NCBI GenBank assembly: GCA_017551765.1
Contig: JAFZKV010000004.1
Location: 1 to 45,372 of the forward strand
DNA: 45,372 bases
Direction of reading: 5' to 3'
Source: Bacteroidales bacterium
GTDB lineage: Bacteria; Bacteroidota; Bacteroidia; Bacteroidales; P3
Positions 2,515 to 43,277 of the stretch are shown piece by piece. Position 1 is the first letter of the stretch. Each line of letters begins with the position of its first letter. The position numbers and the translations under genes are program-made. The notes beneath the pieces were generated by a model, which saw nothing but the letters and a program-made list of their open reading frames with translations, was not told the DNA's origin and made no database searches.

Positions 2515-2519
2515 GAGAA

Positions 2520-2547
2520 GAATTAAGAATTAAAAATTAAAAATTAA
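2520..2547 (+). repeat. 7-bp tandem array (GAATTAA type)
   Basis: Four consecutive 7-bp units, GAATTAA, GAATTAA, AAATTAA, AAATTAA, fill the spacer between the SpoIID-like stop and the start of the thioredoxin-like gene. Units of the same type recur after the thioredoxin-like gene, after ftsY and upstream of ftsE. Confidence 0.8.
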
Positions 2548-2551
2548 GACA

Positions 2552-3100
2552 ATGGATATGAAAAGGGCTTTGATTTTGTCAACTGCGTTTCTGCTTTTCA
2601 CTTTTCACTTCTCACTTTTCACTTCGCAGGCGCAGGCTCAGGTCAAATGGCACACCATCGAGGAAGCCTCAGCCGCCAAGATAGGCGAGAAAATCTACCT
2701 TATCGACTTCTACACCTCATGGTGCGGCTACTGCAAGAAAATGGACCGCGAGACCTTCAGCAACCCCACCGTCGCCAAAATCATCAACCAATACTATTAC
2801 CCTGTCAAGTTCAACGCCGAAGGCGACAACACCTTCACCTGGGCCGGCACCACCTACCGCCGGAGCGGCCGCATACACGACTTTGCACGCGGCGTCAAAG
2901 GCTACCCCACCATCGTACTCTTCCACCCCGACGGCTCCATGATGCAGTCAATCCCGGGCTTCGCCTCGGCAGACGAATACATCGTCATCCTCTGGTACTT
3001 CGCCAGCGGCGACTACAACCGCTACCCATTCGACCGCTACCGCCAGCTGTTCGACACCGAGATACGTCCCAAGATGAAAAAAGCCCTCTCCGAGAATTAA
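2552..3100 (+). CDS. Exported thioredoxin-fold protein
   Basis: A 182-residue protein with an N-terminal signal peptide and a thioredoxin fold of the thioredoxin_7/DUF255-like kind. The active site WCGYC is at about residues 57-61 within FYTSWCGYCKKMDRETF, and the cis-proline loop is GYPTIVLFHPDG. It probably acts as a periplasmic disulphide oxidoreductase, but the substrate is unknown. The start used is the first of two in-frame ATGs (MDMKR); the second is two codons later. Two things are odd. The signal-peptide coding region is itself a 7-bp tandem repeat, and the last residues EN-stop fall inside the next GAATTAA array. Confidence 0.85.
   Translation: MDMKRALILSTAFLLFTFHFSLFTSQAQAQVKWHTIEEASAAKIGEKIYLIDFYTSWCGYCKKMDRETFSNPTVAKIINQYYYPVKFNAEGDNTFTWAGTTYRRSGRIHDFARGVKGYPTIVLFHPDGSMMQSIPGFASADEYIVILWYFASGDYNRYPFDRYRQLFDTEIRPKMKKALSEN
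2594..2628 (+). repeat. 7-bp tandem array inside a signal-peptide coding region
   Basis: Five 7-bp units, CTTTTCA, CTTTTCA, CTTCTCA, CTTTTCA, CTTCGCA, encode much of the hydrophobic core LLFTFHFSLFTS of the thioredoxin-like protein. Because 7 is not a multiple of 3, gaining or losing one unit would shift the reading frame. Confidence 0.75.
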
Positions 3101-3167
3101 GAATTGAGAATTAAGAATTAAGAATGAGAGTGACTTTAAACTTTAAACCTTAAACTTTAAACCATAA
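3094..3167 (+). repeat. Bipartite 7-bp array, first copy
   Basis: Units GAATTAA, GAATTGA, GAATTAA, GAATTAA, GAATGAG (3094-3128) are followed by AGTG and then ACTTTAA, ACTTTAA, ACCTTAA, ACTTTAA, ACCATAA (3133-3167). The first unit supplies the stop codon of the thioredoxin-like gene, and the last ends 3 nt before the ftsY ATG. The same two-part order occurs again at 4115-4223. Confidence 0.85.
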
Positions 3168-3170
3168 CTC

Positions 3171-4121
3171 ATGGGATTATTCAGCAAAAAGAGCGAGGAC
3201 CGCGCCACCCTCGACAGCGGCCTCAGTAAAACCAAAGAGAACTTCTTCCAGAAACTCACCAAGAGCATCCTCGGCAAGAGCAGCGTCGACGACGACGTGC
3301 TCGACAACCTCGAGGAAACCCTCATCAGCAGCGACGTGGGAGTCGACACCACCCTGAAAGTCATCGACCACCTGCAGGCACGCATACGGCGCGACAAATA
3401 CATTTCCACCTCAGAACTCAACTCCATCCTCCGCGCCGAGATTGCGCAACTATTGCGACAGCCCGACAACAACTTCCCGCCCACCTTCGACGCTCCGCTG
3501 CCCCACACTCCCTATGTCATTCTCGTGGTGGGCGTCAACGGCGTGGGCAAAACCACCACCATCGCCAAACTCGCCTACCGCTACAATCAAGCCGGCCGCA
3601 GCGTCGTCCTCGGCGCCGCCGACACCTTCCGCGCCGCCGCCGTCGAACAGCTCTGCCTATGGGCCGACCGCGTCGGCGTGCCCATCGTCCAGCAAGGCAT
3701 GGGCGCCGACCCCGCCAGTGTCGCCTTCGACACCCTCCAATCCGCCCTTGCCCACCATGCCGACATCGTCATTATCGACACCGCCGGACGCCTACACAAC
3801 AAAGTGGGACTCATGAACGAGCTCACCAAGATACGCCGTGTCATGCAGAAACTCGTCCCCGACGCCCCACACGAAGTGCTCCTCGTCCTCGACGCCTCCA
3901 CCGGACAAAACGCCATCGAACAGGCACGCCAATTCACCTCAGCCACCGACGTCAACGCCCTGGCCCTCACCAAACTTGACGGCACCGCCAAAGGCGGCGT
4001 CATCATCGGCATCAGCGACCAATTCCACGTGCCTGTCCGCTACATAGGCCTCGGCGAAAAAATGACCGACCTCCAACTCTTCGACCCCGACCAATTCGTA
4101 GACTCACTCTTCGAGAATTAA
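3171..4121 (+). CDS. ftsY: Signal recognition particle receptor FtsY
   Basis: An SRP-family GTPase that docks ribosome-SRP complexes at the inner membrane for co-translational insertion. At 316 residues it is the short form without a long acidic A domain. An N domain (about 20-95) is followed by a G domain with the P-loop GVNGVGKTT (121-129), DTFRAAAVEQL, DTAGRLHNK, TKLDGTAKGG and the closing GLGEKMTDLQLFD. The ATG follows a 7-bp array, and no strong Shine-Dalgarno is visible. The protein ends FEN-stop, with GAGAATTAA matching the end of the upstream gene because a GAATTAA array begins at the stop. It probably shares an operon with rimO. Confidence 0.96.
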   Translation: MGLFSKKSEDRATLDSGLSKTKENFFQKLTKSILGKSSVDDDVLDNLEETLISSDVGVDTTLKVIDHLQARIRRDKYISTSELNSILRAEIAQLLRQPDNNFPPTFDAPLPHTPYVILVVGVNGVGKTTTIAKLAYRYNQAGRSVVLGAADTFRAAAVEQLCLWADRVGVPIVQQGMGADPASVAFDTLQSALAHHADIVIIDTAGRLHNKVGLMNELTKIRRVMQKLVPDAPHEVLLVLDASTGQNAIEQARQFTSATDVNALALTKLDGTAKGGVIIGISDQFHVPVRYIGLGEKMTDLQLFDPDQFVDSLFEN

Positions 4122-4223
4122 AAATTAAGAATTAAAAATTTAAAATAAGCGTGACTTTAAACCCTAAACCTTAAACCATAAACTTTAAACCTTAAACCAT
4201 AAACTTTAAACCTTAAACTTGAA
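4115..4223 (+). repeat. Bipartite 7-bp array, second copy, running into the rimO start
   Basis: GAATTAA-type units (4115-4149) are followed by CGTG and ten ACYWTAA-type units at 4154-4223: ACTTTAA, ACCCTAA, ACCTTAA, ACCATAA, ACTTTAA, ACCTTAA, ACCATAA, ACTTTAA, ACCTTAA, ACTTGAA. The first unit contains the ftsY stop and the last contains the TTG start of rimO. This repeats the layout at 3094-3167 with more units. Confidence 0.88.
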
Positions 4224-5491: not shown

Positions 5492-5531
5492 GTCCGACTG
5501 AAGTCCGACTGCGGTCGGACTTCAGTCGGAC
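5492..5531. terminator. Perfect 18-bp hairpin between convergent genes
   Basis: Bases 5492-5509 and 5514-5531 are perfect inverse complements around a 4-nt loop (TGCG). The hairpin sits 23 nt after the rimO stop and about 59 nt beyond the sppA stop, a natural place for a bidirectional terminator. There is no T-run directly after the stem on either strand, so intrinsic termination is an inference. Confidence 0.5.
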
Positions 5532-5575
5532 TTCAGTCGGACCATAGTCGGACCACAGTCGGACATGAGTCGGAC
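5492..5575. repeat. 11-bp tandem array (AGTCGGAC type)
   Basis: Between the convergent ends of rimO and sppA, AGTCGGAC recurs with an 11-bp period; the three linker bases vary (TTC, CAT, CAC, ATG). The first part is inverted (GTCCGACTGAAGTCCGAC) relative to the rest. The leader GTGTTTTGTCCGACT before it also occurs in the element at 20729-21060 and, as its complement, in the element at 31769-32093. Confidence 0.85.
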
Positions 5576-5589
5576 ATGGTACGTGGTTA

Positions 5590-11638: not shown

Positions 11639-11646
11639 TAATTTTG
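11639..11646 (+). promoter_or_regulatory. Probable -7 box of the btuB operon
   Basis: TAATTTTG matches TAnnTTTG and lies 4 nt before the riboswitch P1 stem, so transcription would begin at or near the aptamer. No good TTTG is found 19-21 nt upstream, which lowers confidence. Confidence 0.5.
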
Positions 11647-11650
11647 CAGT

Positions 11651-11820
11651 CGGTTTTGGTCGCCCGAAGAGGGCGCCAAGAGGGAATCAGGTGCAAGGCC
11701 TGAGCAGTCCCGCTGCTGTGAGTCTCAATGATTTGCGCCGCACAAAAAGCCACTGCATGCCGCCATAGGCATGTGGGAAGGCTGTCGGCGAGAGACAAGC
11801 CAGAAGACCTGCCAAGACCG
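11651..11820 (+). ncRNA. Cobalamin riboswitch
   Basis: The 5' arm CGGTTTTGG (11651-11659) pairs with CCAAGACCG (11812-11820) as P1, with one G-U pair. Between them are the conserved blocks AGGGAATCAGGTGCAAG, CCTGAGCAGTCCCGCTGCTGTGA, GCCACTG (11749-11755), GGGAAGGC (11775-11782) and AGAAGACCTGCC. These are the hallmarks of the adenosylcobalamin-type aptamer. It ends 34 nt before the btuB ATG, so control of translation initiation, or early termination, by bound B12 is expected. This also fixes the btuB start downstream at 11855. Confidence 0.95.
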
Positions 11821-11854
11821 AAAAAATCCAAGCCCTCGAGGAAAGGACAGGAAA

Positions 11855-19791: not shown

Positions 19792-20660
19792 TAGCCAATA
19801 ATCTTATCGTTTAACAATTCCTGGATGAGGGCGTTGATGTCCTCGTCTTTCGCCGTGAGTGTCTTGCTCTCCTTGGCCTGGAAGGCGATGCTCTGCACCT
19901 CCTTGACCTTCGTCGGGCTGCCACTCATGCCGCACTGCTGCGGGTCGCCATCCACGTCGGACACGCTCCACTGCGTCAGGTTAAGGTAGGGGCGCTCGGC
20001 GCGGAGGCCCTTGCGCGGGTCGTCCTCAGCCACTTCCAACGGGCAGGCGGCATACTTATACTTCATCACCAGCTTGGCGTTTTGCGGACGGCACTCGGCA
20101 GCGCTGCCATTCACGGTAACAACCAAAGGCAGCGGGGCTTCCACCACCTCCACGCCGCCGTCAATCATACGGCGGATGGTGGCTTTGCTATTCTCTATCT
20201 TAAGGATTTCCTCGGCGTAGGTCACCTGGTTGAGACCCAACTTCTGCGCCACCTGGGGACCCACCTGGGCGGTGTCACCGTCGATGGCCTGGCGGCCTCC
20301 AATGACGAGGTCCACATCGCCAATCTTCTTGATGGCGGTGGCCAGCGCATAGCTGGTAGCCAGCGTGTCGGCACCGGCGAAGAGGCGGTCGGTAAGCAGC
20401 CAGCCTGTGTCGGCGCCGCGGTAGAGGCCCTCGCGGATAATCTCGCCGGCACGAGGCGGTCCCATCGTCAACAGGCCCACGGTGGTGCCGGGGTTCTGTT
20501 CCTTGATGCGGAGCGCCTGTTCCAGCGCATTGAGGTCTTCGGGGTTAAAAATAGCCGGCAGCGCGGCACGGTTCACCGTACCCTCGGCCGTCATAGCATC
20601 CTTGCCAACATTCCTTGTGTCAGGAACTTGTTTGGCAAGTACAACAATCTTCAAACTCAT
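19791..20660 (-). CDS. etfB: Electron transfer flavoprotein beta subunit
   Basis: The beta subunit of ETF, 289 residues, somewhat longer than mitochondrial-type EtfB because of a C-terminal extension (after about 255). The nucleotide-binding motif is GGRQAIDGDTAQVGPQVA near residues 120-137. The DGDTAQVGP form is the one I associate with FAD-binding, often bifurcating, ETFs of anaerobes, rather than the AMP-binding form; this is from memory. It is the first gene of a seven-gene minus-strand operon and has a good promoter at 20684-20714. Confidence 0.94.
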   Translation of the reverse strand: MSLKIVVLAKQVPDTRNVGKDAMTAEGTVNRAALPAIFNPEDLNALEQALRIKEQNPGTTVGLLTMGPPRAGEIIREGLYRGADTGWLLTDRLFAGADTLATSYALATAIKKIGDVDLVIGGRQAIDGDTAQVGPQVAQKLGLNQVTYAEEILKIENSKATIRRMIDGGVEVVEAPLPLVVTVNGSAAECRPQNAKLVMKYKYAACPLEVAEDDPRKGLRAERPYLNLTQWSVSDVDGDPQQCGMSGSPTKVKEVQSIAFQAKESKTLTAKDEDINALIQELLNDKIIG

Positions 20661-20728: not shown

Positions 20729-21060
20729 CCGCAGGCGGGGAGGTTATAAAACGGGATTTATGTCGTGCACGACCTATCCGTGTCAACACCGTGTGTGCAC
20801 CGTGTTTTGTCCGACTGTGGTCGGAGTTCAGTCGGACTTGAGTCGGAGTTGAGTCGGAGCAGAGTCGGAGGGGGTGCGGCGGCAACACGATGCTTATACA
20901 TGATATTATGCTTTGAAACAGTGGTTTTTAGGTGATTGATAGTCGGTGATTGGTGGTCGGTAGCCGGTGAAACGGCGGTTTAGGGGTGGTTTTGGGTCAA
21001 TTCCGATTACCGATTACCAGCTACCGATTACCTATTTATATCGTGCACGACCTATTTTTA
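20729..21060 (-). repeat. Composite intergenic repeat element, copy A
   Basis: About 330 bp that align along their whole length, as reverse complement, with 31769-32093. Read on the minus strand the parts are: a palindrome TATCGTGCACGA-type core (near 21039-21052), a GGTNNNN 7-bp array, a central AAACCGCCG-type stretch, an inverted 7-bp array, AATCACCTAAAAACCACTGTTTC, the 11-bp AGTCGGA array (20809-20870), a second TCGTGCACGA palindrome (20761-20773) and the hairpin CCGCCTGCGG (20729-20738). There is no convincing coding capacity. It fills the 411-nt spacer between the nitroreductase end and the etfB promoter. Confidence 0.88.
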
Positions 21061-31726: not shown

Positions 31727-31768
31727 CGAAAAAAGTTAAAAATTAAAAATTAAAAGTCAAAAAATAAT

Positions 31769-32093
31769 ATGTCGTGCACGACATAAATAGGTAATCGGTG
31801 GCTGGTAGTCGGTGGTCGGTATTGACCAAAAACCGCCCCAAAACCGCCGTTTTACCGGCCACCGGCTACCGAACACCGGACACAAATCACCTAAAAACCA
31901 CTGTTTCAGAGCACAATACCACGTATTGACATCGTATTGCCGCCCCACCCCCTCCGACTCTGCTCCGACTCATGTCCGACTCAAGTCCGACTGAACTCCG
32001 ACCACAGTCGGACAAAACACGGTGTATCTACGATGCATCTACGATTATGTCGTGCACGATATAAATCCCTTTTTCCAACCTCACCGCCTGCGG
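31769..32093 (+). repeat. Composite intergenic repeat element, copy B
   Basis: About 325 bp, homologous in reverse orientation to 20729-21060. The order is: perfect 16-bp palindrome ATGTCGTGCACGACAT (31769-31784); 7-bp units GGTAATC, GGTGGCT, GGTAGTC, GGTGGTC; central ACCAAAAACCGCCCCAAAAC; inverted units ACCGGCC, ACCGGCT, ACCGAAC, ACCGGAC; TAAAAACCACTGTTTC; an 11-bp array of TCCGACT type (31951-32013); a second palindrome (32047-32062); and the hairpin CCGCCTGCGG (32084-32093). It is non-coding as far as I can judge and lies between the divergent FtsE-like and lipoprotein genes. The rest, 32094-32204, is AT-rich with one small GGGGTG/CACCCC hairpin. Confidence 0.88.
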
Positions 32094-32204
32094 AGAGGCA
32101 TATCATAAAAAAAGTTAAAAAAAGAGGGGTGGTTGTAAGATTTCACCCCCTTTATGCGTTATTTATATATGAATGGCAAAAATAACATCAAAAATACAAT
32201 TCTC

Positions 32205-37532: not shown

Positions 37533-37603
37533 TTGTCCTACCTGGACTCGAACCAAGACAAACAGAACCAAAATCTGGTGTGCTACCATTACACCATAGG
37601 ACA
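37533..37603 (-). tRNA. tRNA-Gln (anticodon TTG)
   Basis: On the minus strand a 71-nt tRNA is read. Acceptor arms TGTCCTA and TAGGACA pair, with discriminator A. The D arm contains TGGTGTAATGGTAGCA, the anticodon stem CAGA/TCTG encloses loop TTTTGGT with anticodon TTG (Gln), and the T loop is GGTTCGAGTCC. CCA is not encoded. Confidence 0.93.
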
Positions 37604-42568: not shown

Positions 42569-43277
42569 AGCTAAGCATAAAAGTACGGGTGCGGAGGTCG
42601 TCGTAGGTGCGTATATAAATGTCGGGATCTGGCACCTTGAGGTCCAGCAAGCCAAAGTTCATTTTCAGTTCGATAGCAAACTTTACATAGTGTAGGAAGA
42701 CATCGAAGCCCACACCCATCGTATAGCGCAGGTCGCTCGACTGCAAGCGTATGATGCTCTGGTTGGTTTCATTGCGGTTCTTGCGCAAGGAGGCAAAGTC
42801 GAAACCATAGGAGGCGCCAGCCGTGACATAGGGACGGAAATTGCCGTAGCGCACCGAGCGGAACTTCAACTCCAACGGTATGTCACCATAGACCGACTCC
42901 ACATTGCGACTACGCTCAAGCAGGTGATGGGCGGCAAGATAGTCGACTTCCCATGAATAGCTGATTTCGCGCGTTACCAATGTCACCCCTGGCAGAAGAC
43001 GCAGGTTAATCCAACTGCCCACACGCATATCGCCCACCACAGCAATATGGAAACCAGGCGCATAGTAAGAGGTCGTGCCCTGCAAGGTCTGCCGCAACTC
43101 GGCATCCTCGCTGTAATGCAAGTCAAATTTGGACTGCGTGTAGCCCACCTGTATACCATAGTGCAACAGACGGCGGTCAAACTGTCCGAGGTTGCCCGTC
43201 TGCCCTTGGCCAAACAAAGAGAGAGGACTTATAAGTCCTATAAGTCCTATAAGTCCTATAAGTCCACTCTTCTTCAT
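42552..43277 (-). CDS. porT: Type IX secretion system protein PorT/SprT
   Basis: A 241-residue outer-membrane beta-barrel protein. The start at 43277 (MKKSGLIG) is chosen because it gives a signal peptide ending LFGQ. The pattern LHYGIQVGYTQSKF, FHIAVVGDMRVGSWINLRLL, VYGDIPLELKFRSVRYGNFRP, YTMGVGFDVFLHYVKFAIEL and the closing RTFMLSFTFEG agrees with PorT/SprT, which is needed for T9SS secretion. This fits the two T9SS cargos in the window. The signal-peptide codons are a 9-bp tandem repeat giving repeated GLI. Its start lies 1 nt after the asparaginase stop. Confidence 0.82.
   Translation of the reverse strand: MKKSGLIGLIGLIGLISPLSLFGQGQTGNLGQFDRRLLHYGIQVGYTQSKFDLHYSEDAELRQTLQGTTSYYAPGFHIAVVGDMRVGSWINLRLLPGVTLVTREISYSWEVDYLAAHHLLERSRNVESVYGDIPLELKFRSVRYGNFRPYVTAGASYGFDFASLRKNRNETNQSIIRLQSSDLRYTMGVGFDVFLHYVKFAIELKMNFGLLDLKVPDPDIYIRTYDDLRTRTFMLSFTFEG
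43231..43265 (-). repeat. 9-bp tandem repeat in the porT signal peptide
   Basis: Plus-strand units ATAAGTCCT at 43231, 43240, 43249 and (last base changed) 43258. In the porT frame each unit encodes GLI or its phase equivalent, so the hydrophobic core reads GLIGLIGLIGLI. Because 9 is a multiple of 3, unit number could vary without a frameshift. Confidence 0.85.

Follow-up and report, generated by a model that had tools for sequence, protein, structure and literature searches.

The window, by which we mean the whole 45,372-nt stretch of DNA from a gut bacterium of the Bacteroidales analysed here, contains two copies of a composite repeat, and the question raised by this locus is what kind of element they represent. 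The preliminary description, made from the letters of the window, had named a non-autonomous mobile element, a structured RNA and a chromosome-organising site as candidates.

Build and distribution of the palindrome-bounded elements

As had been proposed, the two copies are homologous as inverse complements, with 85% identity from end to end over approximately 330 bp. The complete element of copy 1 is located at positions 31765-32066 on the plus strand and that of copy 2 at positions 20756-21057 on the minus strand, with 24-bp palindromes as ends. In copy 1 (all parts on the plus strand), the near-perfect left palindrome TAATATGTCGTGCACGACATAAAT (31765-31788) is followed by a 7-bp array of the GGTNNTC type (31790-31821), which is swapped for other sequence in some orthologues, by a AAACCGCC-rich centre (31828-31849) and by an inverted 7-bp array (31854-31881). 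The central conserved block CTAAAAACCACTGTTTCAGAGCACAATACC (31886-31921; the AAACAGTGGTTTTTAGGTGA block of the original part list) includes the midpoint between the palindromes. It precedes an 11-bp array of TCCGACTNNNG units (31953-32012), which terminates in the dyad TCCGACCACAGTCGGA (31997-32012), and inverted-sense units with 11-bp spacing (ACGGTGTATCT ACGATGCATCT; 32019-32042), after which the near-perfect right palindrome (32043-32066) closes the element. The core TCGTGCACGA is exact in all four palindromes (31772-31781 and 32050-32059 in copy 1, 21041-21050 and 20763-20772 in copy 2), and the cores of a pair are 278 bp apart in both copies.

This order of parts is the one described before, and it applies to both window copies; the inverted 7-bp array, however, is missing from many family members. 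The palindromes stand as the ends of the element, and the CCGCCTGCGG hairpin (32084-32093) does not belong to it: it is a distinct repeat of the flanks that trails some of the copies only. The bare 10-mer TCGTGCACGA is not rare, with four matches in the window when one mismatch is allowed against 2.1 expected, a number reached by 10 of 100 shuffles. The extended pattern GTCGTGCACGAYATAAAT, in contrast to its reversed control (0 + 0), occurs 30 + 26 times in the source genome, and the consensus of 240 catalogued palindromes, AAATAGGTCGTGCACGACATAAAT, is near-symmetric.

Exact 8-mer repeats in the intergenic DNA of the window are found almost solely at lags of 7, 11 and their multiples, and at lag 11 there are 49 intergenic versus 0 coding repeats. 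A lone 11-bp array of the GTCGGACTGCA type, with its first units inverted, is located between convergent genes at 5492-5577 without palindromes, and thus the array module exists independently. Several 7-bp arrays (AAGAATT, CTTTTCA, ACTTTAA, TTAAACC) are present at 2518-4218, and a 9-bp repeat (TATAAGTCC) in four perfect copies at 43230-43265 overlaps called ORFs. The window also harbours a cobalamin riboswitch (11640-11830, plus strand) and a tRNA gene (37533-37603, minus strand).

The elements were followed in the window's own genome (G000, a 1.92-Mb draft in 148 contigs, 90% complete) and in its closest relative found among 121 genomes of the genus, G050 (JAGCOF01, isolate RGIG9971, a member of the Bacteroidales sampled from yak reticulum; a draft, 83% complete). 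The stretches common to the two genomes are between a few hundred bases and several kb long and mostly 85-95% identical. BLAST of copy 1 against G000 gave 62 matches, the first 40 of which represent main bodies, each at its own place and in unrelated surroundings, with an identity to copy 1 of 71-89%; 40 of 113 first-look candidates were scored in this survey. Our catalogue, which covers fetched loci rather than whole genomes, comprises 120 palindrome-paired elements: 60 in G000, 49 in G050, five in G037, three in CAMHDJ01 (a more GC-rich uncultured member of the Bacteroidales, with 62-63% GC at the three loci) and one each in G107, G109 and G111, the last 11 thus coming from genomes that belong to the genus or are close to it. 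Thus the notion of two copies has to be replaced by that of a family with dozens of members and with relatives in other genomes, and neither a restriction to two copies, nor a lack of relatives, nor a match to a named family, which had been considered fatal to the initial view, was encountered in what was searched.

Since elements were detected by their palindrome pair, those without intact palindromes are under-counted; in one BLAST copy (C31, locus L165) the array sequence is present and the core is absent. Conversely, a few of the 60 elements in G000 may be strain duplicates, since L002 and L004 share flanks: on contigs C127 and C145, they appear to be two versions of one locus, probably due to strain mixture in the assembly. 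The pattern TAKGTCGTGCACGAYMTA was found in 7 of 191 genomes of the window's GTDB family, all of them in one of its 12 genera, and this number is a lower bound because variants such as TAGATCGTGCACGATCTA of CAMHDJ01 are missed. A scan of a genome collection for the core returned at least 80 loci, most of which, chiefly from GC-rich organisms, look like chance 10-mer matches as judged from their titles; inspected were 17 loci of RGIG9971, three of CAMHDJ01, and L209, L219 and L235. At L219 (5112-5532; RGIG3283, goat reticulum), tandem units of approximately 51 bp contain TCGTGCACGA without TA arms and are probably unrelated. Carriage by viruses was considered and rejected: in four viral contigs two cores are separated by 261-291 bp, yet the TA arms are absent there and the matches are probably due to chance. 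A crude scan of 20 loci from core-less genus members, some of them already known to bear elements, revealed no evident other palindromes around 11-bp arrays.

The interiors fall into several types, with 7-bp arrays of differing sequence, a central AT-rich block, the 11-bp TCCGACTNNNG array with its dyad, and CGG units at 11-bp spacing, and in other species the same plan is realized with different sequences. Approximately 125 bp outside the left palindrome are alike at L019, L020, L029, L074, L084, L157, L160 and L163. This is another dispersed repeat, which accompanies some copies and holds a GC hairpin (CCGCCNNNGGCGG) and a ATAAATCTTATAAATC-like sequence; it also contains TATCTTTGCAGTCG, which we take to be promoter-like and to read outward.

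No family of this build was found in the open-licence PMC literature searched, in which the literal TCGTGCACGA gave only matches that are unrelated judging by their titles. The TAACTGA heptamer repeats known in some Bacteroidetes are similar in that arrays of short units are largely intergenic (PMC4679880). They differ from our elements in the palindromic bounds, the composite build and the 11-bp grid, none of which is noted for them in the parts of that source available to us (PMC4679880).

The spacing of the palindromes follows an 11-bp rule

The palindrome-to-palindrome distance ranges from 233 to 408 bp and is clustered at 11n + approximately 2.7 bp. Such a rule, which ties palindrome spacing to one phase of an 11-bp period, or approximately one helical turn in bacterial DNA, is newly described here. 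In a scan of periods from 4 to 20 bp, scored as z = nR^2, the best period for all 120 elements was 11.0 (z = 77), and the score at 10.5 was also high (z = 39.5) because one length class dominates. For the 36 elements outside the range of 260-290 bp, the score was 20.4 at 11.0 versus 1.2 at 10.5, and none of 2000 uniformly random length sets reached 20.4 at any period. When only the 24 distinct lengths of these 36 elements were used, z was 10.5 at the best period of 11.0, a value reached by one of 2000 random sets. With the phase derived from the same data, 101 of the 120 spacings are within 1.5 bp of 11n + 2.67, as compared to 33 expected, and the remaining 19 deviate by more than this. For the 11 elements outside G000 and G050, z was 7.2 at 11.0 (best 7.4 at 11.1) and the residue was 2-4 in ten cases, while L228 of CAMHDJ (281 bp) is off phase.

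The grid extends to the interior: a dyad is recognisable in 111 of the 120 elements, and in these the distance between the dyad and either palindrome follows the same 11-bp steps. As a guard against array slippage, the rule was also assessed in the left modules, which do not contain the 11-bp array; these were clustered by absence of BLAST similarity. With one value for each of 21 mutually dissimilar clusters, one of which contains 85 elements, z was 12.5 at 11.0 and was reached by none of 2000 random sets; since orientation was set by the TCCG count, left and right are perhaps swapped in a few elements. In the 278-bp class, 11 bp are missing from the centre of L013 and L016, and the stretch after the array is longer by 11 bp, by which the spacing of 278 bp is restored, and 1-bp gaps are compensated in L014 and L018. 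The net change in spacing between 22 orthologous pairs of G000 and G050 is 0 in 13 pairs, ±1 in three, ±10 or 11 in five and -36 in one. No clear excess of 11-bp gaps inside the elements over the flanks was seen (Fisher p = 0.40), in a comparison in which the aligner over-gaps replaced interiors. The common 11-bp phase points to direct contact between the ends of the element.

Orthologous sites and gene context

In the 22 orthologous pairs, most of which were found through their palindromes, introducing a bias, and 13 of which were anchored by one flank only, identity is 86.4% in the near flanks (2572/2976), 83-85% in the interiors, 91% in the inner palindrome arms and 97-99% in the palindrome cores. 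A similar picture was obtained for the 12 pairs found by flank search, although the recognition of an occupied site relied in part on the palindromes here, too: both palindromes are kept to within one mismatch in all 12, with core mismatches at 3 of 240 bases in the genome without palindrome selection and at 4 of 480 over both genomes. In some pairs, such as L012/L302 (65% identical) and L017/L299, the interiors were swapped while flanks and palindromes were kept.

Using the flanks, 24 sites were tried in the other genome. Thirteen are occupied, three are empty (L025, L164 and L156) and eight gave no clear assignment, so that 13 of the 16 resolvable sites are common to both sister genomes. G050 likewise has no element at the site of window copy 2, and its intergenic region at this place comprises 40 bp. 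These four empty sites suggest that not every site is needed, and each may reflect either gain or loss. The comparison of flanks that had been recommended yielded these empty sites. None of them had a clean insertion junction, and no target duplication was seen.

The gene pair around copy 2 is found together in nine other genomes, in five of which the gap contains unrelated 11-bp-type arrays, while three gaps are short (34-75 bp) and one comprises 1473 bp. At this place in the genus the array stays and the sequence of its units differs. The arrays in question (L123, L125, L126, L127 and L145, in the gap upstream of the gene starting at window position 20660) are of unrelated sequence, and some of them resemble long hairpins. 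In place of the G000 element L164, another 11-bp array, made of ACTCTTGGTAT units and without palindromes, is found in G050 (L301, about 1620-1690). Near the right end of copy 1, at a distance of no more than about 30 bp, synteny between the two genomes is lost (G050 L146 2715 and L148 857 versus window 32074-32102), and the G050 counterpart of the copy 1 surroundings is split, with its left part on contig C34 and its right part on C33. Across species, the same neighbouring gene was found at 3 of 12 loci tested: the neighbours of CAMHDJ L193 and G000 L329 are relatives with 86% protein identity, those of G109 L044 and G000 L016 are relatives with 47% protein identity and a second gene is shared, and G037 L441, which has weaker palindromes, and G000 L080 have a related neighbour.

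The elements are placed between genes. Among the 50 copies of G000 for which both neighbours were called, 27 are in tandem, 16 in divergent and 7 in convergent context. In tandem contexts the orientation is balanced (14 versus 13), and the upstream stop codon is mostly nearer to the element than is the beginning of the following gene. Long ORF calls extend into elements in four cases (L013, L156, L080 and L167), and there are several short calls of 91-201 aa that overlap with elements; we take these to be start-codon artefacts or spurious frames. The absence of an orientation bias argues for an action at the DNA level.

Possible mechanism and origin of the elements

Based on these observations, we propose that the two palindromes are connected by a single protein, with the DNA between them in a loop of fixed helical phase, a reading drawn from sequence comparison for which we see as much reason to believe as to doubt. 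Each element would be a DNA-level site built from two copies of one 24-bp palindrome, to which one putative dimeric or tetrameric protein may bind, bridging them and folding the intervening 233-408 bp into a loop. Bridging would be efficient only with a fixed rotational relation of the palindromes on negatively supercoiled DNA, and this relation would result in spacings of about 11n + 2.7 bp. The 11-bp arrays and the dyad, being on the same grid, may assist via phased binding or bending. The arrangement that such a loop presupposes, two like operator-type sites at helically phased spacing, is present in the elements. Against the loop speak the 19 off-phase spacings, the off-phase L228 of CAMHDJ and the orthologous pair with the change of -36 bp.

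A parallel is the Lac repressor of Escherichia coli, where one protein bridges two operators, as we infer for the putative protein here (PMC8501960). According to the part of that study available to us, loops in vivo form best at spacings near 133 and 144 bp, which are 11 bp apart, and the helical repeat of the loop is 11 bp per turn (PMC8501960). The Lac loops were studied with a designed operator pair in one construct, whereas our elements represent dozens of natural pairs per genome with a common phase.

Alternatively, the elements could be MITE-like and non-autonomous, with the palindromes as recognition ends of a transposase, the length rule as a consequence of the synapsis of the ends of a short element, and the copies otherwise functionless. 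We consider this rather unlikely. The dispersal of dozens of similar copies to unrelated surroundings, which supports this part of the initial suggestion, the conservation of ends around divergent interiors and the four empty sites in G050 are in line with it, and at some time members of the family must have been copied elsewhere in the genome. Bacterial MITEs are likewise short, non-coding and dispersed with inverted ends, as far as the consulted portion of the source describes them (PMC10969869), and the near-perfect 24-bp palindromes at both ends of our elements correspond to terminal inverted repeats. However, the ends of fixed copies would be expected to decay at the rate of the flanks, and this was not observed; further, most resolvable sites are common to both sister genomes. 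In contrast to MITEs, our elements have the helical length rule and ends that are conserved in fixed copies. No target-site duplication was seen by eye in the aligned flanks, and neither an autonomous copy nor a parent transposon with the same ends was noticed among the fetched loci, the only transposase family searched genome-wide being Y1 (PF01797, Y1_Tnp). This family gave no matches in G000 and G050, while it is present in 8 of the 13 genomes searched, and the exact core was absent from 12 Y1 loci fetched from other genomes.

The last result bears on REPINs and REP dimers, which are thought to be moved by RAYT transposases (PMC3116915, PMC3733652). As in these, two palindromes form one dispersed, mostly intergenic unit with strongly conserved ends and variable spacers (PMC3116915, PMC3733652, as far as the sections consulted go). 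Unlike in them, the 24-bp palindrome of our elements is near-symmetric and has neither a GTAG nor a CGTC tag, the spacings fall into clusters 11 bp apart, and the core-to-core spacers measure 233-408 bp, as compared to the 20-100 bp given there for most REP dimers. Membership in the REPIN/RAYT (RAYT/IS200) system was therefore rejected, as no Y1 transposase was found in the two copy-rich, incomplete genomes, the tag is missing and the spacers are too long.

The nearest precedent we met for a length rule of such a kind comes from the internal eliminated sequences (IESs) of Paramecium, which are excised by a transposase and have lengths that are periodic near the DNA helical repeat (PMC3408717). 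In the part of that work on which we rely, the 10-bp periodicity is attributed to helical phasing of transposase contacts between the two ends (PMC3408717), and so transposition could also produce the rule seen here. IESs differ in being eukaryotic, excised and of 10-bp period, whereas our elements are bacterial, retained and of 11.0-bp period.

A passive repeat is a third, quite improbable possibility: the rule would reflect gain and loss of 11-bp units in the descendants of a few founders, and gene conversion would keep the palindromes alike. Indeed, gain or loss of array units yields 11-bp steps without selection, several steps in the 278-bp class are single 11-bp units in repeat-like stretches, and 11-bp gaps are not in excess over the flanks, in the comparison affected by over-gapping. 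Some orthologue interiors look exchanged between copies, and other members of the genus carry unrelated 11-bp arrays at the copy 2 spot. On the other hand, the rule persists in the array-free, mutually dissimilar left modules and in other genomes. In addition, copy-number changes of the internal 7-bp arrays would be expected to break the 11-bp phase, and conversion should homogenise interiors as well as ends. A structured RNA, an attenuator or a bidirectional terminator, acting after transcription, is hardly tenable and was dropped. In its favour are the terminator-like look of palindromes beside A/T tracts and a window copy that folds far better than shuffles (z -7.5 as DNA). Covariation, however, is negligible in the 33 main-class copies compared (term -0.57; two-sided change in 3 of 36 predicted pairs), and Rfam 15 gave no match for the elements of the window and of 12 loci. 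Some copies have 7-bp arrays of two different types, although these would have to pair with each other, and the copies are balanced in orientation and lie between divergent genes in 16 of 50 classified cases.

Returning to the protein-bridged loop, we favour a role at gene boundaries, either in organising the chromosome or in insulating adjacent transcription units, rather than transposition alone, since copies that have stayed in place after the divergence of the sister genomes still have intact palindromes. The chromosome-organising site considered at the outset thus gains support from the length rule and from palindromes conserved in place. More specifically, a genome-wide system of some 60 helically phased, protein-bridged micro-loops between transcription units may act as insulators or chromosome-organising boundaries, with a nearly free interior and with anchor palindromes and phase selected at each site; this is a tentative view, which we doubt more than we believe it. 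Caution regarding a function for the host is advisable because of the empty sites, the hypothetical nature of the protein and the possibility of gene conversion.

Bacteria commonly contain paired palindromic repeats, which have long raised the question of whether they are parasites or working parts. In this family the DNA itself may bear a mechanical signature, since elements of very different length and sequence fall on one 11-bp phase, and the 11-bp ruler matches the value given, in the portion of the source consulted, for a repressor loop in living bacteria (PMC8501960). If the loops serve transposition, the elements would parallel, in bacteria, the IESs of Paramecium with the helical periodicity of their lengths. 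If they serve the host, they would represent a new class of gene-boundary element.
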